A DNA stretch of 33,348 nt from a virus. Below, in pieces: positions 982 through 31,154 of the stretch. Each line of letters starts with the position of its first letter. Position 1 is the first letter of the stretch. Under the pieces are notes generated by a model that was not told the DNA's origin, ran no database searches, and saw nothing but the letters and a program-made list of their open reading frames with translations. The position numbers and the translations under genes were made by a program. The stretch spans positions 1-33,348 of the IMG/VR virus record IMGVR_UViG_3300045967_000367; one strand, 5' to 3'.

Positions 982-1091
982 CTGTCCTCCCAAGAGCCGC
1001 GGAAGATGGTGATCGCAACGGCGAGGATCACCAGCGCGAATGCAGCCAGGACGGCGGCAAGGGCGTAGGTCACGGCTTCCTGAGGCGTCAC
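978..1091 (-). CDS. Small single-pass membrane protein (37 aa)
   Basis: This short gene has a GTG start that overlaps the csrA stop (GTGA), and its own TGA overlaps the TTG start of the DUF5131 gene. It is therefore stitched into the operon by overlaps at both ends. The product begins MTPQEAVTYALAAVLAAF and is almost entirely one hydrophobic helix (about residues 8-31), followed by a short tail ending in W-E-D-S. The exact overlaps and high third-position GC support a real gene despite its size. The function is unknown; a holin-like or regulatory membrane peptide is possible. No family is recognised. Confidence 0.55.
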   Translation of the reverse strand: MTPQEAVTYALAAVLAAFALVILAVAITIFRGSWEDS

Positions 1092-1282
1092 CTGCGGGCC
1101 TTCCTGTCCTTGGCTCGACGGCGTTCGTCCAGAATCCGACGCCAGACCTCGAGGCGGTGGACGGTGACCTCGGGCGGGGCCTGGACGTCGAGCGCGACCC
1201 GGCCTGCGCCTATGTCCCGCACGGTCACGGAGATGCGATCGCCGATCATGATCGTCTCGCCCTCGCGCCTAGACAGCACCAT
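1088..1282 (-). CDS. csrA: CsrA/RsmA-type RNA-binding translational regulator
   Basis: The 64-residue product matches CsrA almost end to end: MVLSRREGETIMIGD, then SVTV, then a V-A-L-D-V-Q-A-P-P-E-V-x-V-H-R segment. CsrA is a homodimer that binds GGA motifs in mRNA leaders and blocks or promotes translation. The residues needed for RNA contact in E. coli CsrA (Leu4 and Arg44) have counterparts here at Leu3 and Arg43; the N-terminus is one residue shorter. A basic tail (RRRAKDRKARR) extends past the usual end. The start has a strong AGGGAGG ribosome site. The gene overlaps the upstream 95-aa membrane gene by 14 bases and ends in a GTGA overlap with the next gene. CsrA is normally a chromosomal global regulator; on a phage it could reprogram host translation or control the phage's own leaders. 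Confidence 0.92.
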   Translation of the reverse strand: MVLSRREGETIMIGDRISVTVRDIGAGRVALDVQAPPEVTVHRLEVWRRILDERRRAKDRKARR

Positions 1283-4099: not shown

Positions 4100-4614
4100 C
4101 GCACCCCCATGCCGTTCACGTCGATCGGGCCCACCACCCGCACATCCGTGTCGCCGCGCAGCCGCCCACGGCGCTTTGCCTCCGTCACGTAGGGCTGCAG
4201 GTCGAGCGCGTTGCGCACGACCAGGCACAGCGCGCCGGCCGTGCGGAAGCGCGCCTGCAGCTCCACCTGGTCGCGCGAGCGGCGCGCCTCGCCGGTCTTG
4301 CACTCGATCAGCGCGAGCTGGCCGTCGGGTGGGAGCGCGGCCGCGACGTCGCTGAAGCCGCGCTGCCCGGGGTTCGCCCGCAGGTTGAAGCCACCGCCCT
4401 CGCGCGGCGTGACGCGCGGCCCGGTGAACACCGGGATCGCCGGGATGCCGTTCAGCGCCAGGTACTCGAGCACGGCCGCCACCAGCGACTCGTGCGCGCG
4501 GTAGGAGCCGCCCACCAGCTGGCCGAGATGGGCGGCCGCGGACGTCGCCGGCGGCGCCGGCGGGCGCCGGTTCTGCCGGCGGCCGGTGCGCGAGCGCGCG
4601 AGCCACGCGACCAT
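4096..4614 (-). CDS. VRR-NUC domain nuclease
   Basis: 172 residues from the ATG at 4614. A GTG at 4623 overlapping the upstream stop (GTGA) is an equally possible start and would add three residues. Residues about 40-140 follow the VRR-NUC (PD-D/EXK-like) plan: H41-E-S-L, then R-G-F-S-D89, the central I-E104-C-K106-T-G, then S-R-D-Q116, and a following strand C-L-V-V-R-N. D89, E104, K106 and Q116 are the expected metal-binding and catalytic residues. The N-terminus is basic and Pro/Arg-rich, suiting DNA binding. Phage proteins of this family are structure-specific or Holliday-junction-type nucleases used in replication and recombination. The DUF1376-type replication gene lies downstream in the same operon. 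Confidence 0.88.
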   Translation of the reverse strand: MVAWLARSRTGRRQNRRPPAPPATSAAAHLGQLVGGSYRAHESLVAAVLEYLALNGIPAIPVFTGPRVTPREGGGFNLRANPGQRGFSDVAAALPPDGQLALIECKTGEARRSRDQVELQARFRTAGALCLVVRNALDLQPYVTEAKRRGRLRGDTDVRVVGPIDVNGMGVR

Positions 4615-4619
4615 GCGCT

Positions 4620-5537
4620 TCACTCGGCCGCCGGCGATGCGGCCGCCGCCTCCTTGCGCACCGGGATCGACGACTCGAGGAACGACGGCATGGGCAGACG
4701 GCGCAGCGCCGAGCCGAACGACAGCTCGCGGAACTCCACGCTCGAGAGCGGCGGGCCGATGCGCTTGCGGTCCGACCTCAGCACGGCGATCACGCGCACC
4801 GTCTGCTGGCCGCGGCGCCACAGCGAGCCGGGCACGAGCGCCTCGACCTTGGGCAGCGTCAGGTCGCGGCCGCTGACGCCCTGCGGGATCTGGCGGACCG
4901 CGACGGTGCGCGCGCCGGGGCTTTCGCTGGTGCCGACGGCGCTGGGCTTGTGGACCGTGACCGCAGGAGTCGCAGGCGGCGCCGGACCCGGCACAGGTCC
5001 CGGTGGATCCCCGCGGCCAGCTTCCCGTCGCGAACGAACAGCCCGCCGTCGCGTGTGCGCGCCAACGCCCCCTCGAGCCGCGTCTCCTCCGCCACCAGCC
5101 ACTCCTCGTTCCGCATTCGCTGCCTCCTTGTGTGCGGGAGGGGCCGGCTGTCCGGGGTTCACCGGTTCCCCCTCCCTCTCGCTGGCCCCGTCGCGCGTGC
5201 CGTGCCGGGTGAGCACGCTGGCGGCCCCGGCTTCCGCGCCAACGCTCTTGGTCGAACGAGACGCACGCACTTCGTCCGACGGCATGCCTGCGACACGGGC
5301 GAACTTCGCCCGCTTCGGGGCCCTTGGATTCCTCTCGCACACCTCCGCCGTCAGTTCGGGCGCACCCTCTGCACCCCAGTCGCCACGCGCCCTGAGCTCG
5401 AGCGACCGGCCCCGTTGCCGCACCGCGGTGATCCGCAGGTCGTGCGGCAGCATCGGGGGCGGGGCCGGCGTCGCCTCGCCCCGCAGGATTCGGGCGAGCA
5501 GCTCGAGCGGCAGGGTCAGCGTGGCGATGCGCTTCAT
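4620..5537 (-). CDS. Open frame of 305 codons with two dissimilar modules; gene structure uncertain
   Basis: The ATG overlaps the stop of the 39-aa gene (ATGA). Residues 1 to about 130 look coding (MKRIATLTLPLELLARIL, then D-L-R-I-T-A-V-R-Q-R-G-R-S-L-E-L), ending in a disordered Ser/Gly/Glu-rich stretch. From about 5116 to 4960 the frame turns into Gly/Arg/Ala repeats with poor third-position GC, while the neighbouring frame (the 85-aa ORF) looks like real protein. From about 4955 to 4620 this frame is again clearly coding. It ends in a compact module with V-P-G-S-L-W-R-R-G, T-V-R-V-I-A-V and L-P-M-P-S-F-L, resembling small SH3-like phage proteins. A GTG near 4812 with GAGG upstream could start that module on its own. 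I suspect a 1-base frame disruption near 4955. Function unknown. Confidence 0.5.
   Translation of the reverse strand: MKRIATLTLPLELLARILRGEATPAPPPMLPHDLRITAVRQRGRSLELRARGDWGAEGAPELTAEVCERNPRAPKRAKFARVAGMPSDEVRASRSTKSVGAEAGAASVLTRHGTRDGASEREGEPVNPGQPAPPAHKEAANAERGVAGGGGDAARGGVGAHTRRRAVRSRREAGRGDPPGPVPGPAPPATPAVTVHKPSAVGTSESPGARTVAVRQIPQGVSGRDLTLPKVEALVPGSLWRRGQQTVRVIAVLRSDRKRIGPPLSSVEFRELSFGSALRRLPMPSFLESSIPVRKEAAAASPAAE
4859..5116 (-). CDS. Overlapping 85-codon ORF, probably the true 5' part of a second gene
   Basis: The start ATG (5116) is preceded by AAGGAGG at ideal distance, one of the best ribosome sites in this region. The first 50 residues are convincing: MRNEEWLVAEETRLEGALAR, then D-G-G-L-F-V-R-D-G-K-L-A-A-G-I-H, with high third-position GC. 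From about 4955 on, the frame becomes Ser/Ala/Arg/Pro-rich with poor codon use, while the enclosing frame becomes good. The simplest reading is one gene starting here and continuing in the other frame to 4620 after a single-base disruption. A true overlapping gene is the alternative. No family is recognised. Confidence 0.5.
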   Translation of the reverse strand: MRNEEWLVAEETRLEGALARTRDGGLFVRDGKLAAGIHRDLCRVRRRLRLLRSRSTSPAPSAPAKAPARAPSRSARSRRASAAAT

Positions 5538-5653
5538 GACCAGGGCCCGAAGAGCCGCACCGCGATCGCCGCGAGCACCACGACGACCAGGGCCGCGCCC
5601 CAGTAGACGACGAAGAGCCCGTAGTCGGGCTCGTGATCGTGCCTGTAGGCCAT
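5534..5653 (-). CDS. Small single-pass membrane protein (39 aa)
   Basis: ATG overlapping the stop of the 246-aa gene (ATGA), and its own stop overlaps the next start (ATGA). The N-terminus MAYRHDHEPDYG is polar. One strong transmembrane helix follows (about residues 13-33, with a V-V-V-V-L run) and the tail is R-L-F-G-P-W-S. It directly follows a larger membrane protein, so the pair may act together at the envelope. No family is recognised. Confidence 0.65.
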   Translation of the reverse strand: MAYRHDHEPDYGLFVVYWGAALVVVVLAAIAVRLFGPWS

Positions 5654-6393
5654 CAGAACGGCACCCACAGCCCGACCTCGCCCCGCGGCCGGTGCTTGCC
5701 GGGTGTGTCCCACGTGAGGCGCACGCGGGCCGCCAGGTGGTCGGACGCGTTGAACCCGACCTGCCCGCCGAGCCACCAGGTCGGGGCGCCGGAGAGGTCG
5801 TCGTAGCGCACGCCGGCCCCGGGCGCGATCGAGAAGCGGGGCCCGGGCCCGGTCCACGTCGCGATCCCCAGCTTCGAGACCGGGGCCTTCACCGCCGGCG
5901 CCGCGCTCAGCTCCGGTAGCGGAGCGGTGCCCTGGGCCTGCGCGCCAGGCGCCGCGACCAGAAGGAATCCGACGATGAGGGCGATGCTTTTCCCGGGCCG
6001 TGCGGAGGGCGCCTTCACCATGCTGCGGAGCCCGGCCGCGAGCACGCCCCCGAGCGGGTTGCCGGTCATCCACCACCCGAGCAGCCACACCGCGACGGCG
6101 TTCACGAAACGCTTCCAGTTCACGCCGCCGGCGACCACGTGGCCCGCCTTCCACTCGTCCACGATCGGCGCCACGCCCGGGAACTGCCCGACGACCCAGA
6201 GCACGAGCCGCTCGAGCACGCCGAAGGCGAACCCGACGACGGCCGCGATCAGCGCCGCACGCATGGGCTCCGGCAGGAAGCCGAGCCACTGGCCGACCGT
6301 CCCGGTCAGCCAGGTCACGACCGCCACCGAGTCCGCCGGCGTGTGCACCTGGAGCGCCACGAGCGACACCATCACCACGAACATCGAGAGCAT
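5653..6393 (-). CDS. Multi-domain envelope protein: membrane helices, internal signal-like segment, beta-strand C-terminus
   Basis: I use the ATG at 6393 (246 aa), which has AGAGGAG eight bases upstream. An in-frame ATG at 6564 overlaps the previous stop (ATGA) and would add 57 residues, but that stretch carries an inverted repeat (6463-6532) better explained as regulatory. Hydrophobic helices lie at about residues 2-18, 46-70 and 95-122. Residues 125-155 look exactly like a secretory signal peptide: M-V-K-A-P-S-A-R-P-G-K, a hydrophobic run, then A-Q-A-Q. The remainder alternates like outer-membrane strands (W-L-G-G-Q-V-G-F-N, L-A-A-R-V-R-L-T-W) and ends in an aromatic residue, G-L-W-V-P-F. 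It could be a holin fused to an outer-membrane domain, or a spanin-like linker; neither is proven. Confidence 0.65.
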   Translation of the reverse strand: MLSMFVVMVSLVALQVHTPADSVAVVTWLTGTVGQWLGFLPEPMRAALIAAVVGFAFGVLERLVLWVVGQFPGVAPIVDEWKAGHVVAGGVNWKRFVNAVAVWLLGWWMTGNPLGGVLAAGLRSMVKAPSARPGKSIALIVGFLLVAAPGAQAQGTAPLPELSAAPAVKAPVSKLGIATWTGPGPRFSIAPGAGVRYDDLSGAPTWWLGGQVGFNASDHLAARVRLTWDTPGKHRPRGEVGLWVPF

Positions 6394-6462
6394 GAGCGTT
6401 CTCCTCTGCCGATGGGTCCCGGACTCCGAGCCGGCTCGGAGATCCACGTGCGTGAGGATCAT

Positions 6463-6532
6463 GTCGCAGGGCGATTCCCGGCGCGGTGGCTGCGGGTACC
6501 GGTTCAGCCTCGTTACCGGTTCGCCCTGCGAC
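6463..6532 (-). promoter_or_regulatory. Candidate structured RNA leader (three-way junction)
   Basis: On the minus strand, GUCGCAGGGCGA at the 5' end pairs perfectly with UCGCCCUGCGAC at the 3' end, a 12-bp stem. Inside, the self-complementary hexamer ACCGGU occurs twice around an 11-base loop (AACGAGGCUGA), and CCCG pairs with CGGG in a third arm. It lies about 70 bases before the ATG at 6393, in a 167-base gap that is unusual for this packed operon. It may be a leader element, an attenuator, or, read as DNA, a protein site. Confidence 0.4.
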
Positions 6533-6560
6533 GACACGGGCGGTTGCAGGGCCGCCGTCT

Positions 6561-7364
6561 TCATCGGTACACGCCCTTCACCCGGCCCCACGTCGAGGGG
6601 CGCGCGGGGGTGGCGCGCTCGAAGCCGCACGGGGGGTGGGGGCAGCCCGGCAGCTCGCTGCAGGCCTCGAGGTCGTCGATGAAGAACGGCGAGTAGGCGC
6701 CGTTGCCCACGCCGTTTTCGTACGGGTGCCGGATGTGGATCCGGTTGAAGCCGTCGGGGTGCGCGAATGTCACGGTGCCCCAGTGGCACAGCGTGCCGGA
6801 GGTGTCGCCGGCGCACGCGGCCCCCGCCAAGTGCGAGCCCTCCTCGTCCGCCACGACGGTGCCCACGAGCCCTCCGGGCACCGTGTACGACTTCCAGAAC
6901 GTGACGGTCGCGGGCAGCGCGCCGAGCTGGGTGCACGTGCAGTTGTATCCGGGCGGGCACGAGGCGCCCCCGGTGCAGTTGTAGGCGTGGATCGCGTTCG
7001 ACCCGGAGTAGCGGAAGGTCACGCTCTTCACCGGGGTCGAGAAGTAGATCTCGCTCACGCCGCACACCGGGTGCGCGTGGCGCAGGGCGTAGCCATCGCT
7101 CGGCTCCTGGGCGAAGAGTCCGTCCCAGCCGAAGATCATGCTCACCCAGTCCAGCTCCGACATGCAGTCCATGCCGGGCGCGTCGCGGTCCTTGTCGATC
7201 GTCCACTCGTCGCAGGCGTAGCTGATCGTGATCCCGTTCTGGGTCACGCTCCGCACCCCGGAGACCGAACACACGCCCTCCGGGCCCGGCGCGAACTGAT
7301 CGAGCACACACGCGGCGTGCGCCTCGACGGCGAGCAGGGCGAACAGCATCGCCAGCGTTTTCAT
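6561..7364 (-). CDS. Secreted Cys-rich protein
   Basis: The ATG at 7364 has GGAGGG close upstream; a start at 7385 overlapping the previous stop (ATGA) would add MTTEGRR. The N-terminus MKTLAMLFALLAVEAHA is a clear Sec signal peptide, with cleavage expected after A-H-A. The mature part (about 250 residues) has roughly 14 cysteines, including a C-P-P-G-Y-N-C-T-C cluster, which suits disulfides outside the cytoplasm. The segments Y-F-S-T-P-V-K-S-V-T-F-R-Y and N-R-I-H-I-R-H, and a C-terminal F-F-I-D-D-L-E, recall beta-sandwich carbohydrate-binding domains; the last motif is frequent at the end of such domains. No family is certain. A secreted phage product could alter the cell surface or attach to particles after lysis. 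Confidence 0.75.
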   Translation of the reverse strand: MKTLAMLFALLAVEAHAACVLDQFAPGPEGVCSVSGVRSVTQNGITISYACDEWTIDKDRDAPGMDCMSELDWVSMIFGWDGLFAQEPSDGYALRHAHPVCGVSEIYFSTPVKSVTFRYSGSNAIHAYNCTGGASCPPGYNCTCTQLGALPATVTFWKSYTVPGGLVGTVVADEEGSHLAGAACAGDTSGTLCHWGTVTFAHPDGFNRIHIRHPYENGVGNGAYSPFFIDDLEACSELPGCPHPPCGFERATPARPSTWGRVKGVYR

Positions 7365-7381
7365 CCTGCGACCCTCCGTAG

Positions 7382-8371
7382 TCATTCGATCACCCGGTTG
7401 CGGCGGCGGCTCACCCGGAGCGTGCGGGAGCGGTCCGAATCGCCGCCCTGGCGGTGGATCGTGTTGCCGCGCGTGTTCGTATCGTCCACCGCGCACCCGA
7501 CGCCGGCGTGGTAGGCCGTGTGGATTTCGCACCCCGTGGTCGAGCCCTCGAGCCGGATGCTGGTCTCGCCGCGGCGGTAGGAGCCGGAGTAGATGCCCCC
7601 GATCACAGTGCACCCGCTGCAATCCCGCAGGACGAGTCCGGGCATGGGATCCGGGCCCTCGCCCGCGAAGGTCTCGATGTGCGGCGTGAGGATCGTCATG
7701 CCGACGCAGCCTTCGAGCAGGATCCCGCCCGCGACGTTCTCGGCGGTGAGGCGGTTGAGCGTGCCCGACTGGCAGTTGCGGATCGTGTAGCCGCGGCCGG
7801 TCCACGGCGCGTCGTCGCGGCCCCAGTCCTTCCGGTGGCGCACGCTCCACACCTGGTCCCAGTTGAGCGTGGTGGCGCCCTCGATCCGGATCCCCTCGTC
7901 TCCGCACGCCCCGTACGTGGTGAACTCGCGGAGTACGCAGCCGACCACGCTGTAGACACTGCCCTTCGCCGGCAGGATGCGCAGCCCGTTCCGTCCCATG
8001 TAGAGCGCCGAGACCCGCTCGAGCGTGAGCTGCCCCACCGGCCCGCCCCGCTCGGGTAGGTCGAGCACGATCGCATCCCCGGTGCCGGGCTCGTGCCCCC
8101 AGCTTCCGCCCTTGCGCGGCCACGAGAGCACGAGATCGTGCAGGTGGCTGAGCGTGTTCTGGACCCGCAGGATCGTGCTGTTCCGGGTGTTCCCGCTCGC
8201 GTCCGGGCAGTAGACCAGCCCCCGATCCTCGGGGTGCCGGCCGTCGCCACAGAGCGTCACCGCGAACGGCGCGAGCGCGAGCCCGTCCGGCGTGTCGGGC
8301 ATGAAGGGCCCGTGGTCGTACTCGAGCCGGGTCGCGCGGGCCTCGAGCAGCGGGGGGATCAGCGGCCACAC
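7382..8371 (-). CDS. Right-handed parallel beta-helix protein (tail spike / pectin-lyase fold)
   Basis: The most upstream plausible start is GTG 8371, overlapping the MazG-like gene by 13 bases; the ATG at 8302 is an alternative. The protein shows repeated short strands with Asn/Gly turns typical of beta-helix rungs: G-Q-L-T-L-E-R-V-S-A-L-Y, G-Y-T-I-R-N-C-Q-S-G-T-L-N-R-L, G-I-L-L-E-G-C-V-G-M-T-I, G-L-V-L-R-D-C-S-G-C-T-V-I, and S-I-R-L-E-G-S-T-T-G-C. Such folds are used by phage tail spikes and depolymerases and by secreted polysaccharide lyases. There is no signal peptide, which favours a virion protein. No catalytic set can be assigned by eye. It lies far from the tail genes, next to other surface-directed genes. 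Confidence 0.75.
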   Translation of the reverse strand: MWPLIPPLLEARATRLEYDHGPFMPDTPDGLALAPFAVTLCGDGRHPEDRGLVYCPDASGNTRNSTILRVQNTLSHLHDLVLSWPRKGGSWGHEPGTGDAIVLDLPERGGPVGQLTLERVSALYMGRNGLRILPAKGSVYSVVGCVLREFTTYGACGDEGIRIEGATTLNWDQVWSVRHRKDWGRDDAPWTGRGYTIRNCQSGTLNRLTAENVAGGILLEGCVGMTILTPHIETFAGEGPDPMPGLVLRDCSGCTVIGGIYSGSYRRGETSIRLEGSTTGCEIHTAYHAGVGCAVDDTNTRGNTIHRQGGDSDRSRTLRVSRRRNRVIE

Positions 8372-21227: not shown

Positions 21228-22910
21228 TCAGTACTCGGACACCAGGTTGACGCGGTCCTGCGCGCGGCGCAGCTCGCCGGACGGGCTCGACAGCTCCATC
21301 ACGAGGCTGCGCACCCCCAATGTGCTGATGTTGAATGTGTTGATCGTAGAAGCGCCCTCTTCCCGCGGACGCCCCGCCCTATTTCCACTGGCAGCGGTCT
21401 CGAGTACCGTCCCGGCGCCAGGCAGGATGACGTTCAAGAAGAAGCCGAACACCTTTGCTGCGGCAATGCGGGCGAGCTGGGCCAGCATTTCGTCCACGAG
21501 CGTGTGCGTGATGTTGTTGATGATGTTCGCAGAGTACTTCCAGCGCGCGGTCAACTGGCTGAATGCTCGGCCAGCGCTGAGCTGAAGACCATTCCAAAGT
21601 CCTTCCATGCTGGCCCTGAGAACCCCGATGCGAGACGTCACCTCTGCAGCAACATCCGCCCACTCCAGTAGGACAACCAGCGCCTCAAGACTCGAACGGC
21701 TAACAGTGCCCATCCCTTCGTCGAACGTGGCGAGGCCGCGGACCAAGGCATCCATCTGAGCGTTGGTCTCGGCGGTTGTGGTGGCCAGAACATCTTGGCC
21801 TTCGCCGACGTCCGTGGTGGCCTCGACGACTTGCCCGGCGACCACGAGCAGATCCGACCCCGACTTCTCCATTTCGCGCAAGGCCTTCGGCCCACCCTTG
21901 AGCAGGCGATCGACCTCAGCGTTGATCTTCGCGATCTGCTCGGCGGTGAGGTCGAGCCCGAGCATGCGCTCGATCGGGTCCGTGATCCGCGAGGCAGTGA
22001 CGGTGATTTCGAACCGCGAGTCGGCGATGTTCGCGAGGACCTCGTCGCCCTTTTTCTGGAAGGTGGTCATGTGCGTGGGATCAGCGACGTTCGTCGGCTC
22101 GGCCATCCCGCGCTCGGCCTTGAGCTTAGACAGGTCCTCGAGCGGGTCCACCAGCTGCGTGCGCAAGATCTCGCCGGTAGCCCTTGCCGCCTCGAGGATC
22201 GCGTTGAGCGTGCCCACCACGGCCGCCGAGATGGGGACAGCCAACGCCTGGAAGGACGTGGCGATCCCCTTCCAATTCCGTCCGAGCTTGTCGAGCTGCT
22301 CGTCCAGTTCGCGCGCGGCCGGGGCCATCTCTTCGGTGATGATCGCGCCCGTGGCGCGCAGCTCCTCGCCCGTTTCGCGGCTCTTCGTCGCGAGGTCGTC
22401 GATGTTGCCCAGCAGGTCGGCCGAGCCCTTCCCGAGCAGCCGGTAGGCGATCTCGGTTCTCTTCGCAACGTCCGCGGTCGAGGCCAGAACCTGCACGATC
22501 TGGGTAAACGCCTGTTCGGTGTCGCGCGTGGTGACGTGAAGCTGCTTCAAGAGCGGATCGTTGCTCGCGATCGTGCGATTGAGGAAGGTGAGCGCCGAGG
22601 TGAGCGCTTCGCTGGAACCGCCTGCGTCTTCGAGGACGCGCTGCCAGATCTGGAGCGTCTCGATGCCGACTCCACTCCGCGCGGACAGCCGGTCGAGCTG
22701 CTCGACGGCGTCGGCCATCTGCTTGGCGCTGGCGACTACCGCCCCACCGATCGCCGTGATTCCCGCCACACCCGCCCCGATCAGCCCGGCCTTGGCGGCC
22801 AGGTTGCCGACCGCTCCCGTGAGGCCGGTGATCCCCTGCCGCGTCCTGGCGATCGTCGCCGTGGCCTCGTCTCGGGCCCGGAGGATGAACTCAACGGTGT
22901 CGGTGGCCAT
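21228..22910 (-). CDS. Tape measure protein
   Basis: ATG just after the tail-chaperone reading (stop 22914). The 560 residues are mostly helical with hydrophobic stretches near residues 30-60 (G-L-I-G-A-G-V-A-G-I-T-A-I-G-G-A-V-V-A-S) and near 480 (V-F-G-F-F-L-N-V-I-L-P-G). The start (F-I-L-R-A-R-D-E-A-T-A-T-I-A) is typical of tape measure proteins, which set tail length. At about 0.15 nm per residue in an extended helix, the tail would be near 85 nm, a medium siphovirus. The location after the two overlapping chaperone frames is diagnostic. Confidence 0.92.
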   Translation of the reverse strand: MATDTVEFILRARDEATATIARTRQGITGLTGAVGNLAAKAGLIGAGVAGITAIGGAVVASAKQMADAVEQLDRLSARSGVGIETLQIWQRVLEDAGGSSEALTSALTFLNRTIASNDPLLKQLHVTTRDTEQAFTQIVQVLASTADVAKRTEIAYRLLGKGSADLLGNIDDLATKSRETGEELRATGAIITEEMAPAARELDEQLDKLGRNWKGIATSFQALAVPISAAVVGTLNAILEAARATGEILRTQLVDPLEDLSKLKAERGMAEPTNVADPTHMTTFQKKGDEVLANIADSRFEITVTASRITDPIERMLGLDLTAEQIAKINAEVDRLLKGGPKALREMEKSGSDLLVVAGQVVEATTDVGEGQDVLATTTAETNAQMDALVRGLATFDEGMGTVSRSSLEALVVLLEWADVAAEVTSRIGVLRASMEGLWNGLQLSAGRAFSQLTARWKYSANIINNITHTLVDEMLAQLARIAAAKVFGFFLNVILPGAGTVLETAASGNRAGRPREEGASTINTFNISTLGVRSLVMELSSPSGELRRAQDRVNLVSEY

Positions 22911-22913
22911 GGC

Positions 22914-23138
22914 TCAGGCGTCCTCGTGAATCCCAACCAGCAGCGCCCCCAGGGCATCGCCGGGGGGCTGCGTGCGCATGGCCTTGATCCAGCGCCGGTA
23001 CTCGTCGTGGGCGCGCATCACGGTCACGTTGTAGGCGAGGCGGGGGTCATGCATGGTTTCCCACGGCGTCCGGCCGCTCGCCCGCGCCAGGCGCCACAGC
23101 TCCCACGCGACCCTCCCGGCCGTCTCCGTCTCCAGCAT
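22914..23138 (-). CDS. Tail assembly chaperone, downstream frame (gpT-like), made by frameshift
   Basis: This 74-codon frame (MLETETAGRVAWELWRLARA ...) lies directly before the tape measure gene. The ATG at 23138 lacks a ribosome site; the sequence before it is GC-rich repeats ending GGG TTT C. In the upstream chaperone frame those last codons are GGG TTT, and a +1 step (TTT to TTC) enters this frame exactly at the ATG. A stop in this frame upstream limits entry to this stretch. The product would be a C-terminal extension on the 195-aa upstream chaperone, as gpT is on gpG in lambda. Overlap with the upstream frame is 92 bases. Confidence 0.8.
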   Translation of the reverse strand: MLETETAGRVAWELWRLARASGRTPWETMHDPRLAYNVTVMRAHDEYRRWIKAMRTQPPGDALGALLVGIHEDA

Positions 23139-23634
23139 GAAACCCGGCGCCGGCGCCGGCGTCGGCGTCGTCCTCCTTGCCGAAGCCGCTCAGGGCGATG
23201 ACGGTGGTGGTGAGCAGGGCCTTCTCGTCGATGCGGAGGACGCTGCAGGGGAGTGAGAGCGGGTGGCGCGGGGTGGCGGGATCGAACCAGAACGCGGGGC
23301 GGACCTCCCCACCCTCCCCGTCGTCGAGGACGGTGCCCAGCTCGATGAGCCGGGGCGCGATCTCTTTCAGAAACCGGGAGCCGTCGCGAACTTCGGCCTC
23401 GCTGGGTGCGGGCTCGGGCTGCCCCGCGGCGGTGGCCTTGCGCCGCGCGACGCGCGCCCGGGCTCGTTCCACCGTGTCGCCGGGCAGCCGCTGCAGGATC
23501 TCGGCGGCCTCGTCGATCTTCTCGCAGCGCACGCGCACGGGCTTGCCGTCGCGCGTCTTCAGGTGCGTCAGCTCCACGATGCGGGACGTCTCGGGCACCT
23601 GCACGTCCGCCGCGCTGGTCGCCTTCCCTTCCAT
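23047..23634 (-). CDS. Tail assembly chaperone, upstream frame (gpG-like)
   Basis: The ATG at 23634 is preceded by GGAGGT six bases away, the reason for choosing it over an earlier in-frame ATG. 195 residues. The N-terminal 160 are good protein (L-T-H-L-K-T-R-D-G-K-P-V-R-V-R-C-E-K-I-D-E-A, then F-L-K-E-I-A-P-R-L-I-E-L-G). After about residue 165 the frame becomes Ala/Gly/Asp repeats and then noise-like, while the other frame takes over. This is the usual design of tail-assembly chaperones: a common short form plus a rarer frameshifted long form, both binding the tape measure during tail assembly. Confidence 0.85.
   Translation of the reverse strand: MEGKATSAADVQVPETSRIVELTHLKTRDGKPVRVRCEKIDEAAEILQRLPGDTVERARARVARRKATAAGQPEPAPSEAEVRDGSRFLKEIAPRLIELGTVLDDGEGGEVRPAFWFDPATPRHPLSLPCSVLRIDEKALLTTTVIALSGFGKEDDADAGAGAGFHAGDGDGREGRVGAVAPGAGERPDAVGNHA
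23139..23145 (-). promoter_or_regulatory. Probable +1 ribosomal frameshift site (GGG TTT C)
   Basis: In the gpG-like frame the ribosome reads GGG TTT CAT. Phe-tRNA on TTT can shift one base forward to TTC, a better match for its GAA anticodon, and then read ATG CTG GAG. No canonical -1 heptamer is present and a -2 shift does not re-pair. Confidence 0.7.
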
Positions 23635-23738: not shown

Positions 23739-23984
23739 CTACTCGACCGTGATGACCTCCCTCGTGACGCGCCCGCCGGCGGCCGTCTCGAGATCGAGCG
23801 TGAGGGCTTCATGGAGCTGGAGCGAGCCTTTGCATGTGGGGCAGCGCTTCGCGTGCACCCGCTCCTCCAGCTCCTCGAGGGCCCCCGTCTCCTTCCAGGA
23901 GACCAGGGCCCCGCAGACCAAGCACTGCGCGGTGCCGGCCACCGCCAGCACCCGCAGCTTGATGACCAGCTCGCAGCGCGCCAT
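23739..23984 (-). CDS. Zinc-ribbon-like protein between the tail tube and the chaperones (81 aa)
   Basis: ATG overlapping the tail-tube TAA (TAATG). The product has two cysteine pairs, C21-L-V-C-G and C48-P-T-C, 24 residues apart, a small zinc ribbon. It begins MARCELVIKLRVLAVAGTA and ends in a strand-rich tail. Small genes here sometimes encode assembly factors; no family is recognised. The 104 bases between this gene and the chaperone start hold no gene. Confidence 0.72.
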   Translation of the reverse strand: MARCELVIKLRVLAVAGTAQCLVCGALVSWKETGALEELEERVHAKRCPTCKGSLQLHEALTLDLETAAGGRVTREVITVE

Positions 23985-24997
23985 TACGTGAGCGCGGCCT
24001 CGGTGTTGCGCAGCCGGACGTAGAGCGCGGCCGTGTCGGTCGGGTCGTAGAACGCGCGCCACGTGACGGTCGAGAGGATGATCCCGTAGGCCTCGATGGG
24101 GGCCGACCACTCGACCAGCTGGGCGCTGCCGGAGCGGATCTCCAGCTCGCGCTTCGAGGTGCTGCCGATCGTGGTCGGGTCCTGGAACACCAGGCGGGGC
24201 GAACCCGCCGTGAAGTTGCGCGCGGCATCGAACTGGGTCTTGGTCTTGAACTCCTGGGTGAGCTTCCAGGTGACGTCGAGGAAATCCGAGCGCAGGGGCT
24301 CGTCGATGTTCTGGCTGCCGAGGTAGAAGCGGTCCTCGTGGTGGGGCGCCGCCACCGCGATCTCGAACGATCGGACGCGCACGTTCGCCGCCGTGTCCCC
24401 GGTGCCGTCGTCCACCACGCCGCCGGCGTTCTTGGTGTCGTGGTAGCGCACGGGGAGCAGCGCCGGGAAGGCGAGCGAGCCGGTCGGGGTCTGGTCGCTC
24501 TGGTAGTCCTTGGAGATCGTGGGCCACTCGATCATGACCAGGGCGTCGTCGCCGTTGCCGGCGGTACCGCGGATCGTGAGCCCCATGTGCTTGAGGCCGA
24601 GGGCACGGAAGCACTTGCCGGCCGGGATGTCGCCGTGAATCACCTCGGGCGAATAGCTGTTCAGCTTGCCGCTGCCGGCGCCGTCCGAGAGGAACACGTG
24701 GTCGCGCACCCCGGTCTCGACCAGGCTGTTCGAGTAGGTACCGAGGGCGCCGCGCAGCAGCTCGAGCAGCCCCTCGTAGTTGGCGCGGGTGACGAACGAG
24801 CCCTTGTGCAGGATCCCGCCCTGGTAGAGGCCGCGGCGCGACTGCCCGCCGTAGAGGCTCCCGTCGTTGATGACGCCGATCTCGGGGTCGAGGTTCCAGC
24901 GCACCACCTCGAGCTTCTTCGTCGGCGCCTGGAAGGTGCCGTAGGTGGTCTCCTTCGGCCCAGTCTGGATGTAGCTTAGGTGTCCGAGGCCCGACAT
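23984..24997 (-). CDS. Major tail (tube) protein
   Basis: ATG with ACAGGAGGAAACC upstream, a strong ribosome site for a highly expressed gene; 337 residues. The sequence is beta-rich, with long strands such as F-L-D-V-T-W-K-L-T-Q-E-F-K-T-K and A-S-Q-N-I-D-like turns (R-F-Y-L-G-S-Q-N-I-D-E-P). It opens MSGLGHLSYIQTGPKETTYG, similar in layout to phage tail tube proteins that begin with 'G..G...A.ET.YG'. The gene order (terminator candidate, this gene, chaperones with frameshift, tape measure) makes it the tube protein. Family assignment by sequence alone is less certain than by position. Confidence 0.85.
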   Translation of the reverse strand: MSGLGHLSYIQTGPKETTYGTFQAPTKKLEVVRWNLDPEIGVINDGSLYGGQSRRGLYQGGILHKGSFVTRANYEGLLELLRGALGTYSNSLVETGVRDHVFLSDGAGSGKLNSYSPEVIHGDIPAGKCFRALGLKHMGLTIRGTAGNGDDALVMIEWPTISKDYQSDQTPTGSLAFPALLPVRYHDTKNAGGVVDDGTGDTAANVRVRSFEIAVAAPHHEDRFYLGSQNIDEPLRSDFLDVTWKLTQEFKTKTQFDAARNFTAGSPRLVFQDPTTIGSTSKRELEIRSGSAQLVEWSAPIEAYGIILSTVTWRAFYDPTDTAALYVRLRNTEAALT

Positions 24998-26672: not shown

Positions 26673-26927
26673 CTACTCGTCGCCCGCGTGCGACCGCCCG
26701 CGCTTGCGGGTGGCCGGCTCGCGGTCTTCGACGGCGGCCGGTTCGCCCTGGGGCGCCCGATCCGCCGGCACTTCCTCTCCCACCGCCGGCTTGAGCTTGA
26801 GCCGGCCGATCGCCACGTGCGGTGCCGCCTCGCGCGGGCGGAGCTCGACTTCCTGCCCCGGATAGACGTCACCGTGCGGCGGGCCGAGGCAGAAGCCGTC
26901 CTGCACCAGGTACCGCTGCGTCTCCAT
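26673..26927 (-). CDS. Small protein after the capsid gene (84 aa)
   Basis: ATG with GGAG about five bases upstream. The chain METQRYLVQDGFCLGPPHGD continues V-Y-P-G-Q-E-V-E-L-R-P-R, like small phage proteins with an SH3-like fold, and ends in a charged disordered tail. It shares its frame with the unshifted capsid ORF, so if the capsid frame really runs on without a shift, this would be its C-terminal extension. I think a separate gene is more likely. Confidence 0.65.
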   Translation of the reverse strand: METQRYLVQDGFCLGPPHGDVYPGQEVELRPREAAPHVAIGRLKLKPAVGEEVPADRAPQGEPAAVEDREPATRKRGRSHAGDE

Positions 26928-26989
26928 CGCTTCTCCGTGCCGACCCGGGGGCTGCGTGCGCCCCCGGGCCGTCTCAGGGTCCTCTCGGC

Positions 26990-28904
26990 CTACGCGGTCG
27001 CGCCGGTCGCCTTCGAGAACGACTCCCCGTGGCGGATCAGGATGTCCGCCATCTGGAAGCTCGTTCAGGCCGCTCTGCTTCGCGGTGTACGGATCGACGA
27101 TCAGCTCCATCGCGAACCAGAAGCCGATCAGCACGTCCCGCCAGTTGCCGAAGATCGCGCCGATCTCCGTGCCGCCGCTGAACTCGCTGCCCGACATGAC
27201 CTTCGAGATCTGGTTCGTCGCGATCGCGCGGTAGCCGTCGACCACGCCCTCGGTGATCGGGCCCTCCCACACCGGCGAGTACGTGTTCGTCGCCTTGTGG
27301 ACCTGCTTGAGGTTGGCCGACATGGTCGGGTTCATGAGCCACCCGAGCGTGCCGAGCATCGCGTTGGCCGTGGCGACCTGGCCTTCCATCGCGACGACCT
27401 TGGCGTAGGACATCGCGCCACCGACCGCGGTCGTGCTGACGCCGGCCGCCTTGTAGATGCCGGTCGGCTCGCCCGCGGCGCCGAGGCCGTGGGGCACCGC
27501 GAGGTCCACCGCGATCGAGTGCACCGCGCTCAAGTCGTCACGCACCATCTCCTCGGTGTCGAAGGCCCCTTCGACCAGGAGCTGGCGCGAGAACGACGTC
27601 GCGCCCATCAGGGTCTTGGGCGCGAACTGAGCGAGCGCGAAGGACATGTCGCCCTTGGTGATCGGAGCCGGGGGATTCTCGCCGACCCACTTGGCGGGAA
27701 TCGCACCGCTCTGCTTCGGGAACGTGACCGGAGCAGTGAGGCCCGTGATCACCCGCGCACCGAGCCGGATCGCTGCCGTCTGGTTGCGCAGCAGCTCGAT
27801 GACGTCGCCGGCCTGCTCGAAGGTGAGCTCCGCGCCCTTGCCGCCGGTCTTCGTGTCGAGCGCGCGCTTCTTGAGGCCCAGGCTCGCCGGGATGAGCAGT
27901 CCGCCCTTGCGCGCCATTCCGGCGGAGTGGCGCTCGAGCTCGCGGTGCATCTCCCACTCGAGTCCCTTGCCGTCGCGCCCCTCGCGCATCTCGGAGGCCG
28001 CGAGGATCGCGCGGGCGTACGAGTAGCCGCGCCGGTCCTTCTCCGGCACGTCGATGACCTCGGACGCCGGCTGGGTGCGCTTCGGGATGCGGTCGGCCTT
28101 GATCGTCAGGATCTCGCGCCCGACCTCGTCGGGGGTGAGCCCGCGCTCGAGCCACCCGCCCATGCGGTCGAGCATGTTGTGCGAGTCGGCCAGCTCGTAG
28201 ATCTGCTTCATCTCGGCGCGGTGATCGCGCTCGGCCGTGGCCGGCGCGGCTCCACCGCCGCCGCCGGCGCCCGCGTTCAGGTGGCCGTTGCCCTGCTTGA
28301 GCTTCATGTTCCGGTCCTCCTTCGGCGGGTCGTCCGCCTCGATCTCGATCGGCGGCCCACCGCCACCGTTCGCGTCCCGGCCGACACCCACGGTGGGGTC
28401 GGCGGGCACACCCACGCTCGAAAGCTCCACGGGCTCCCACTGGGTGATGCGCCAGAGGTCGCCCTTGTCCTCGTCCTCCTCGACCAGCTTCGCCCGCTTC
28501 GGGATGTAGCCGACCGAGATGTTCCCGCGGATCCCATCCACGAAGTCGCGCTCGACATCCTGGCCGCGCTGCGTGCGCGAGAAGACGATCACGGCGCGCA
28601 GCACGTGGTCGTCGTCGATGCGGGCCGACTCGATGACACCGACCGGCGCGCCGCGGTGCTCCTCGAGCACGGCCGCGCGGCCCGAGGTGAAGCGCTCGAG
28701 CTGCACCGATTCGCCCGCGTGGTCGAGGACCTCGCGCCATTTGCCGAACCAGCCGTAGCGCTCGACCTCGTACTCGGAGCTGACGGCGACCTCGTAGCGG
28801 GCGCGCTCGTCACCCTCGGCCGCGCGCGTCGCGACGGGCGCGAGCTTGCGGAACTCGCGGATCGGCAGGAATCGCATGCCGGCGGCTGCGGGGAATCGCT
28901 TCAC
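26990..28904 (-). CDS. Prohead protease fused to HK97-type major capsid protein (apparent frameshift near the end)
   Basis: I start at GTG 28904, which has GGAGG five bases upstream; an ATG at 28979 has no ribosome site and lies in a palindrome. Residues about 30-185 are a U35/HK97-like prohead protease: V-L-E-E-H-R-G-A-P-V-G-V-I, D-F-V-D-G-I-R-G-N-I-S-V-G-Y, and W-E-P-V-E-L-S-S-V-G-V-P-A-D-P. A helical, scaffold-like linker leads to the capsid part (P-A-S-L-G-L-K-K-R-A, F-P-K-Q-S-G-A-I, G-N-W-R-D-V-L-I-G-F-W, L-I-V-D-P-Y-T). Near 27058-27065 the protein only continues sensibly (F-Q-M-A-D-I-L-I-R-H-G-E-S-F-S, stop at 26990) in the next frame. Unshifted, the ORF runs to 26673. An internal strong start exists at 28307. 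Confidence 0.88.
28307..28322 (-). promoter_or_regulatory. Internal ribosome site and in-frame start within the protease-capsid gene
   Basis: AAGGAGG (28316-28322) lies eight bases before an in-frame ATG (28305-28307, reading MKLKQGNGHLNAG) at the junction of the protease and capsid parts. This is a full Shine-Dalgarno match and would yield a capsid-only product of about 438 residues. Confidence 0.7.
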
Positions 28905-28975
28905 GTCGTCCTCCATGGCGTCGCGGGGCTGGCGCGTCGTCTGCGTCCCAAAGTCGGGGACGCCGGAGGCGATGT

Positions 28976-28998
28976 CCATTACACTATTAGTGCAATGG
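28976..28998. promoter_or_regulatory. AT-rich 23-bp palindrome between the divergent structural operons
   Basis: Arms CCATTACACTA and TAGTGCAATGG are reverse complements with one mismatch around a central T. It is strikingly AT-rich here and sits between the leftward capsid gene and the rightward connector gene. It is a likely operator for a dimeric regulator of both operons. I do not see a clear -35/-10 pair for either side. Confidence 0.6.
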
Positions 28999-29031: not shown

Positions 29032-29562
29032 ATGCAGGACCTGACGGCCCTTCCCGCGAGCTTCGCAGCCGGCACCACGGTGAAGTACACGCGGAGCCAC
29101 ACGGACTACCCCGCGAACGACGGCTGGGCGCTGACCGTGGTGCTCTCGGGCCGCGATCGCCTGGAGGTCGCGGCCACGCCGAGCGGGGCCGCCTTCGCCG
29201 TGACGCTGCCGGCGACCGAGACGGCGAAGCTGCGGCCGGGCGTCTACCGCTGGACCGAGCGCGCGTCCAAAGCCGGCGAGGCCTTCACCGCCTGCGATGG
29301 CGAGATCACCGTGACGCCCGACGTCGTCGGAGCCTCGGTGGGCGATCTCCGCAGCCAGGACGAGAAGGAGCTCGATCTCGTGAACACCGCGATCGAGAAG
29401 ATTCTCACCGGCACGCTGCAGGCGTTCTCGATCGCGGGCCGCCAGGTGGAGTACGCGGACCTCGACAAGCTGCAGGCCCGGCGCGCGGTGCTCGAGGCGA
29501 GGATCTCGCGGCGCAAGAACGGCGGCCGGATCGCACGGGTCCACCGCGTGGCGTTCCGGTGA
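29032..29562 (+). CDS. Head-tail connector, gpW/DUF6148-like C-terminus (176 aa)
   Basis: ATG with no clear ribosome site; it ends in a GTGA overlap with the portal gene. Residues about 1-95 form a beta domain (T-V-K-Y-T-R-S-H-T-D, W-A-L-T-V-V-L-S-G-R-D-R-L) like small phage proteins that precede portal genes. Residues about 105-165 are a helical hairpin: D-L-V-N-T-A-I-E-K-I-L-T-G-T-L-Q-A-F, then I-A-G-R-Q-V-E-Y-A-D-L-D-K-L-Q, the pattern of lambda gpW-like and DUF6148 proteins ('...G.....ADL..L...'). Such proteins help join head and tail. The fusion of a beta domain to this hairpin is less usual. Confidence 0.72.
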   Translation: MQDLTALPASFAAGTTVKYTRSHTDYPANDGWALTVVLSGRDRLEVAATPSGAAFAVTLPATETAKLRPGVYRWTERASKAGEAFTACDGEITVTPDVVGASVGDLRSQDEKELDLVNTAIEKILTGTLQAFSIAGRQVEYADLDKLQARRAVLEARISRRKNGGRIARVHRVAFR

Positions 29563-31154
29563 GGCGGCGCGTGGCGCCGCGCCGGGCGCTGACCGTCGGC
29601 GAGCGGATGAAGCGCGGCTGGGACACGCTCCTCGAGCTGCTGAGCAGCACCGGGGGTGCGCACCCGAGCTTCAAGGGCGCCGAGGTGTCGCGGATCCGCC
29701 CCGGCCAGTTCGGCCTGATCCGCGGGGCCGACCGCGAGATCGAGTGGGACCTCCGGCTCCTGCGCGGCCGCGCGCGCGCGCTGCGGCGCAACAACCCGTA
29801 CATCGAGAACTACCTGAACCTGCAGCGCACGAACGTGCTGGGCCCCGAGGGGCCCGAGCAACAGGCGCAGGTACGAAACGCCGGCGGCGAGCTCGAGAAA
29901 GAGATCAACGACCGCATCGAGGCCGCGTGGCGCGCGTGGTCCGAGGGCCCAGTCTCGGTGGACGGGCAGATGAACCTTGCGATGTTCCGCCAGCTCGCGC
30001 TCGAGACCGCCACGGTGGACGGCGAGGCCTTCACGCTGCCGGTGTTCGACACGGAGTTCCCCCACGGCCTGGCGCTCGACTCGATCGACGCCGACCTGGT
30101 GGACGAGCGGATGTGGCGCATGGCGGGGTCCGAGGGCCCCGAGGTGCGGATGGGCGTCGAGGTGAACGAGCGGGGACGCCCCCTCGCCTACTACTGCTGG
30201 GACTACCCCGAGTACGGGCCCGGGCGCACCAACCGCGGGCGGCTGCGCTACGACGCCGCCGATGTGCTCCACCACTTCCGGCGCCGGCGCGCGCACCAGA
30301 CGCGCGGCGTGACGCGCTTCACGGCCGCGATCGTGGACACGATGGACCTCGACGGCTTCGAGGAAGCGGTGATCGTCGGGGCGCGCGCCGCGGCGAACCA
30401 GGTGGCCGCGATCGAGTCGGGGGACGCCGCCATGTACACCGCACCCGAGGAGGACGCGCCGACGAAGCAGCCGGCGATGGTCGAGAGCGAGGCTGGGATG
30501 TACCTCGAGCTGCAGCCGGGCCAGAAGATGTCCAGCTTCACCCCCGAGCAGCCGCAGTCGGTGTACGACCCGTTCGTGCGCAACCGCCTGCGCCGCCTCG
30601 CCGGCGCCCTGGGCGTGGCGTACGAGGCGCTCGCGAACGACCGCTCGGGCGTGAACTACGGCTCGATGCGCGGGGGCTCGCTCATCGAGCGCGACCTCTG
30701 GCGCCTCGAGCAGGCGTGGTGGGCCTGGACCTTCGAGCGCCCGATCCGCGAGCGCTGGCTCCAGTCGGCGCTCGCGAGCGGGGCGCTCGTGCTGCCGTCG
30801 CGCGACTGGCGGAAGTACTCGGCGGTGAAGCTCGTGTTCCGCGGCTGGCCGTGGGTGGATCCGCTCAAGGACGCGCAGACCGCCCAGCTCGAGATCGAGA
30901 TGGGCTTCAACTCGCGCACCCGGATCCTCGCCCAGCGCGGCGCCGACTTCGCCGAGATCCTCGACGAGCTGGCCGCGGAGCAGAAGGCGGCCGCGGCGAA
31001 GGGCGTGGACGTCGAGCCGCGGGCGACGGCGGCGCCGGCGGAGAAGGAGCCGGCGGACGAGGACGGCGGCGCCGGCGACGAGAGCGAGGACGGCGGGAAC
31101 GGCAACGGCCGCGCGCACAACCGCGTGCGGAAGGCGCTCGCGCGCGGGCGCTGA
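29559..31154 (+). CDS. Phage portal protein, lambda gpB family
   Basis: GTG start in a GTGA overlap; 531 residues, normal for the family. Motifs of lambda-type portals are evident: R-A-R-A-L-R-R-N-N-P-Y-I-E-N-Y near residue 75, D-G-E-A-F-T-L-P-V, the V-L-H-H-F-R-R-R-R-A-H-Q-T-R-G-V-T-R-F region, A-L-G-V-A-Y-E-A-L-A-N-D-R-S-G-V-N-Y-G-S-M-R near 350, and W-V-D-P-L-K-D-A-Q-T near 430. The C-terminus is acidic and Gly-rich, then basic. The portal is the dodecameric DNA gate of the capsid. It is transcribed away from the capsid gene, and no terminase precedes it. Confidence 0.95.
   Translation: MRRRVAPRRALTVGERMKRGWDTLLELLSSTGGAHPSFKGAEVSRIRPGQFGLIRGADREIEWDLRLLRGRARALRRNNPYIENYLNLQRTNVLGPEGPEQQAQVRNAGGELEKEINDRIEAAWRAWSEGPVSVDGQMNLAMFRQLALETATVDGEAFTLPVFDTEFPHGLALDSIDADLVDERMWRMAGSEGPEVRMGVEVNERGRPLAYYCWDYPEYGPGRTNRGRLRYDAADVLHHFRRRRAHQTRGVTRFTAAIVDTMDLDGFEEAVIVGARAAANQVAAIESGDAAMYTAPEEDAPTKQPAMVESEAGMYLELQPGQKMSSFTPEQPQSVYDPFVRNRLRRLAGALGVAYEALANDRSGVNYGSMRGGSLIERDLWRLEQAWWAWTFERPIRERWLQSALASGALVLPSRDWRKYSAVKLVFRGWPWVDPLKDAQTAQLEIEMGFNSRTRILAQRGADFAEILDELAAEQKAAAAKGVDVEPRATAAPAEKEPADEDGGAGDESEDGGNGNGRAHNRVRKALARGR

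Follow-up and report, generated by a model that had tools for sequence, protein, structure and literature searches.

Two overlapping open reading frames in the 33,348-nucleotide viral contig analysed here (the window), ORF1 and ORF2, appear to encode one tail assembly chaperone pair, G and GT, and the long form is very probably made by a +1 slip of the ribosome on a UUU_C site, an arrangement that we trace by sequence comparison through a family of uncultured tailed phages. We infer both the slip and its rate as follows: the majority of ribosomes would continue to ORF1's own stop codon and yield G (195 aa, 20.6 kDa), and in the others the P-site tRNA-Phe would re-pair from UUU to UUC, one base forward, after which translation would proceed in the +1 frame and yield GT (239 aa, 26.2 kDa) with the junction ...GAGAGF-MLETE.... 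The long product has the first 165 residues of ORF1 in common with the short one, and the peptide expected across the +1 junction is EDDADAGAGAGFMLETETAGR (calculated average mass 2084.1 Da). The tRNA-Phe anticodon GAA reads both UUU and UUC, so re-pairing after the +1 step would be full. The same UUU to UUC re-pairing has been argued for influenza PA-X (PMC3498833), and UUU_Y has been described as especially +1-prone in bacteria (PMC5009743). Going by lambda gpG/gpGT, one would expect G to bind the tape measure protein and the T domain to bring in tail tube subunits.

Layout of the two frames

The features of the region are listed in Table 1. ORF1 starts with the ATG at 23634, where GGAGGT 5 nt upstream provides a good ribosome site, and stops at the TGA at 23049-23047; past codon 165 its tail is low-complexity, in agreement with the preliminary description, which had judged this frame to be of low quality beyond about residue 165. 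The ORF2 frame is open from 23189 to 22914 and stands at +1, equally -2, relative to ORF1, and the in-frame TGA that had been said to confine entry into it was located just upstream of this open stretch. The two frames do meet, as had been stated, at GGG TTT C directly before an ATG without a ribosome site: the junction reads GCC GGG TTT C and then ATG CTG GAG, with TTT at 23142-23140, and the best Shine-Dalgarno match of the ATG at 23138 is GGT at a spacing of 3. This ATG is probably an internal Met codon of the fusion.

No -1 step from ORF1 reaches ORF2. The preliminary description had also claimed that no -1 heptamer is present, and this part needs correction: one phased heptamer, G_GGA_AAC from 23062, does lie in the overlap of the window, but it leads to the third frame and leaves the argument unaffected, and it is present only in the window and in a near-copy of this locus (L002). 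A second in-frame TTT_C occurs within ORF1 on the minus strand (TTT 23373-23371, codon 88); it cannot feed ORF2, because a TGA (23369-23367) comes directly next in the +1 frame.

Table 1. Features of the chaperone region and its flanking genes in the window
Feature	Position	Strand	Remarks
Tape measure protein gene, directly downstream	21228..22910	-	PHROG tape measure families, best named 8.6e-12
ORF2, T-like C-terminal domain reached by +1 shift (proposed)	22914..23138	-	74 aa
ORF1, G-like tail assembly chaperone gene (putative)	23047..23634	-	195 aa to own stop
Shift site TTT C (UUU_C)	23139..23142	-	TTT-Y in 13/13 independent loci
AAGGAGG, Shine-Dalgarno-like, candidate stimulator or pause element	23172..23178	-	29 nt spacer to shift site
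TGA in ORF2 frame, limits entry to positions downstream	23190..23192	-	window sequence
Small ORF between tail tube gene and ORF1	23739..23984		
Tail tube protein gene, upstream	23984..24997	-	PF18906 Phage_tube_2, phrog_290

AlphaFold2, run with the ORF1 alignment (A6, 12 members), predicted a domain that is folded up to about residue 150, and disorder over residues 154-165, just before the shift. ORF2 was predicted, confidently except at its C-terminal end, as four helices (H6-22, H26-30, H35-56 and H63-74) that start right after the junction. The predicted helical domain, together with the conservation of ORF2 in relatives, bears out the earlier impression that the downstream frame is coding. 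Differences between the window and L002 in ORF2 fall at codon positions 1/2/3 as 5/1/12, a pattern that, with such small numbers, is consistent with coding in the ORF2 frame.

Homologous gene pairs

Scans of viral contigs, for which ORF1, ORF2 and the tape measure served as queries, gave 13 independent loci (window included) and the near-copy L002; all loci are metagenomic contigs, the window being an IMG/VR viral contig. The independent loci show about 27-60% protein identity, and the most distant member, L028, is linked to the others by its tape measure protein (24% identity), its gene order and the same junction. For the T-domain alignment, a row translated through an N was omitted whole. 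In all of the gene pairs (14/14), ORF2 stands at +1 to ORF1. The search does not yield a +1 relation by itself, since three further loci (L029-L031), which have a partial tape measure match only and form a separate family, carry overlapping chaperone ORFs in the -1 relation.

Outside these contigs, ORF1 and ORF2 gave no significant family in Pfam, PHROG and PDB sequence searches (phrog_389, XkdN-like, reached only E 0.08), and fold searches gave none in PDB and, in BFVD, only a weak best match (E 6e-3) to a viral protein without a name and an E of 0.7 to a named tail assembly chaperone. By tblastn, no relatives of ORF1 or ORF2 were found among isolate phage records; tape measure matches in isolate phages were remote only, none of them accompanied by a second family member, and two scans of bacterial and archaeal genomes found no relatives.

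Conservation of TTT-Y at the junction

Alignment of the homologous phages at the site, which had been proposed as a check, upheld the proposal: a zero-frame TTT-Y stands at the junction in every independent locus (13/13), as TTTC in 12 and as TTTT in one (L003). TTT makes up 1-33% of the Phe codons in these loci, the junction TTT is the sole TTT of ORF1 in 11 of the 13, and the product of the per-locus TTT fractions is about 10^-14, a figure that overstates the significance somewhat, the loci being homologous. Among 64 aligned nucleotides around the site, the three T are the only invariant columns, and the fourth base (Y) comes next in conservation, tied with a few columns of G or C. Both neighbouring codons vary, the one 5' of TTT being GGG, GGC, ACC, GCC, CGA, TCG, TCC or ATG and the one 3' of it CAT, CCT, TCT, CCG, CGT, CGA or CTT. 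A demand for zero-frame Phe alone would predict TTC, because TTC dominates the other Phe codons of the loci, and a demand for Phe in the +1 frame alone would leave the first T free, which leaves the four-base word TTTY as the sole explanation. For 10 of 12 tabulated independent loci, the codon in the zero-frame A site is less frequent than the one read in the +1 frame, a bias partly forced by the +1-frame amino acid. Downstream RNA structure showed no consistent element across loci, with z-scores from -2.8 to +0.9.

Other routes to ORF2

The rival that survives best holds that ORF2 is a separate gene with its own start (ATG 23138 in the window), reached by internal initiation or coupling, and that the overlap is incidental; we consider this improbable. 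The window and four other independent loci have an ATG after the site, preceded in two of them by purine-rich sequence (AAGGAG at 9 nt in L006, AAGGA at 11 nt in L026), and GGAGG lies further upstream in most loci; judging from the purine-rich stretches, an additional internal start is possible in L006 and L026. The eight remaining independent loci, however, have CTG, CTC, CTA, CGG, GTT, GAG or TTC in place of the ATG. Between the upstream stop and +60, the T frame of L038 is devoid of ATG, GTG and TTG, and the window ATG itself has no ribosome site. The T frame of L014 has a single GTG, upstream and without a ribosome site, and the zero-frame ORF1 of this locus stops 5 codons past TTT. An internal start would also leave unexplained why TTT rather than TTC is invariant.

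A -2 shift would reach the same frame with one extra residue inserted, and phage Mu employs such a shift in the equivalent gene (PMC3498833, PMC5009743), but we regard it as very improbable here. After a -2 step, tRNA-Phe would face GGT, GCT, CCT, GAT, CGT or TGT, all of them unreadable, and the conserved fourth base Y is relevant to the +1 step only; the earlier contention that only a +1 step lets Phe-tRNA re-pair thus holds across the family.

An artefact of sequencing or assembly, or the decay of a single gene into two frames, might be suspected in that every sequence is a metagenomic contig, but the 13-locus comparison refutes it, with the same frame relation and TTT-Y in 13 independent assemblies and an ORF2 that is conserved and predicted to fold, and its probability is negligible. 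Hardly any probability attaches either to transcriptional slippage at the T run, which would alter the mRNA rather than act on the ribosome: on long homopolymer runs it is known to take the place of ribosomal frameshifting, whereas the run here, with only three T (four in L003), falls short of the length at which polymerases are known to slip.

An upstream GGAGG element

If GT is made by a +1 slip on UUU_Y, a Shine-Dalgarno-like element upstream of the site may contribute to it. Of 12 independent loci, 10 had GGAGG between -36 and -10, versus 3.7 expected from synonymous codon resampling by each locus's usage, and a count of 10 was never reached in 20,000 simulations. L038 is an eleventh locus with GGAGG (11/13 in total), and L017 and L024 are without it. 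The spacer from GGAGG to TTT is mostly 16-20 nt, with 23 nt in L028 and 29 nt in the window. The codon phase of the element also varies, being GGA GGx in most loci, AAG GAG GAC in the window, L002 and L006, and CCG GAG GGG in L028; because of these differing phases, a single amino-acid motif does not explain it. Known Shine-Dalgarno stimulators lie closer to their sites, at about 3 nt in prfB (+1, at CUU_UGA) and about 10 nt in dnaX (-1), and the distance observed here fits no known stimulator rule. We tentatively entertain, while leaning against it, the idea that GGAGG is a real +1 stimulator, acting through pausing or through anti-Shine-Dalgarno pairing at an unusual distance. If so, GGAGG and UUU_Y would together make up a bipartite +1 cassette, distinct from that of prfB, across a phage chaperone gene family.

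Gene neighbourhood and the phage

The tail tube gene, the ORF1/ORF2 pair and the tape measure gene follow one another in the window, and the same order is found in relatives; in lambda-like phages, G and T occupy the equivalent place between tail tube and tape measure. The tail tube assignment is given by matches to PF18906 (E 1.7e-13, 51.2 bits vs a cut-off of 27) and to phrog_290 (7.1e-17). As neither ORF1 nor ORF2 significantly matches a known family, their putative assignment as chaperones is based on their location and architecture and on the overlap being conserved. The tape measure protein of the window has 560 residues and is free of the long tract of degenerate proline-rich repeats present in L005, whose tape measure ORF (4164-7409 of that contig) has 1081 codons.

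Genes for an integrase, for ParB and CsrA, and for a glycosyl hydrolase 108 muramidase suggest a temperate phage with a bacterial host. The phage-encoded CsrA (1088-1282, minus strand; PF02599, E 1e-16) belongs to a bacterial post-transcriptional regulator type, which supports a bacterial host. In the head module, a single ORF of 768 residues (26673-28979, minus strand; phrog_617) joins the maturation protease to the major capsid protein, and the portal gene (29559-31154, plus strand; phrog_21) is oriented against it. The contigs of L002 and L014 share this divergent layout, and the portal and protease-capsid genes are co-oriented in those of L005, L006, L015 and L026; the head module thus seems to be inverted in one group of contigs. 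The portal frame of the L038 contig (32899-34473, minus strand) contains one internal TGA.

Comparison with known systems

The gene pairs appear, from the comparisons above, to form a sequence-distinct chaperone family, absent from the isolate phage records searched, with a well-localised +1 site on a sense codon. The preliminary description had called a +1 signal on a sense Phe codon unusual; this is fair in that described tail chaperone shifts are mostly -1, but it has to be qualified, given a precedent in HF1-like haloviruses and the +1-proneness of UUU_Y. Lambda gpG/gpGT, other -1 chaperones and the -2 system of Mu resemble the window in gene order and in producing a short G and a long GT by frameshifting; they differ in the direction of the shift and in the slip site, and no sequence relation to them was detected.

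Outside tail chaperone genes, influenza A PA-X (UCC_UUU_CGU) and amalgavirus UUU_CGN have the same UUU to UUC re-pairing in the P site on a sense codon (PMC3498833, PMC5052127). They differ in using eukaryotic ribosomes and a conserved UCC or CGN context, and this cassette is not found in the window family, in which the 5' codon varies and CGN occurs only in L024 and L028. Bacterial UUU_Y sites (argI leakiness and, likely, YopN-TyeA) are described as +1-prone without a stop codon (PMC5009743), and no stop codon follows the site here either. The +1 site of prfB also has an upstream Shine-Dalgarno stimulator; unlike prfB, the window family has a sense codon after TTT and GGAGG 16-29 nt upstream. 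In Listeria phages PSA, A118 and A500, a +1 shift occurs at CCC_UGA in tail shaft genes (PMC5009743), likewise in a phage tail gene, but the product there is the major tail protein and the site is a Pro codon beside a stop.

The paper on PRFect, a recent predictor, notes that forward frameshifts lack an identified general motif (PMC10885494). In the window family, comparison narrows the +1 site down to four bases, a motif usable by annotation tools, and the family lends itself to a simple test, on natural sequences, of whether UUU_Y slips on a sense codon in prokaryotes.

The nearest parallel is found in HF1-like haloviruses (HF1, HF2 and relatives), for which a +1 tail chaperone shift has been proposed at TTT-CGC (PMC7230728); the HF2 sequence, when inspected, did contain the arrangement AAG TTT CGC AGA TAG. 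Like the window, these viruses have, in the interval from tail tube to tape measure, two ORFs that overlap in a +1 relation, with TTT-C at the junction. They differ in their archaeal hosts, their contractile tails and a zero frame that ends two codons past TTT, the shift there being likewise a proposal, and the HF2 G protein has no detectable homology to the window family (hhalign probability 0.1%). Placed beside these unrelated haloviruses, the window family suggests, as far as sequences can tell, that tail chaperone genes arrived at this +1 solution on more than one occasion.
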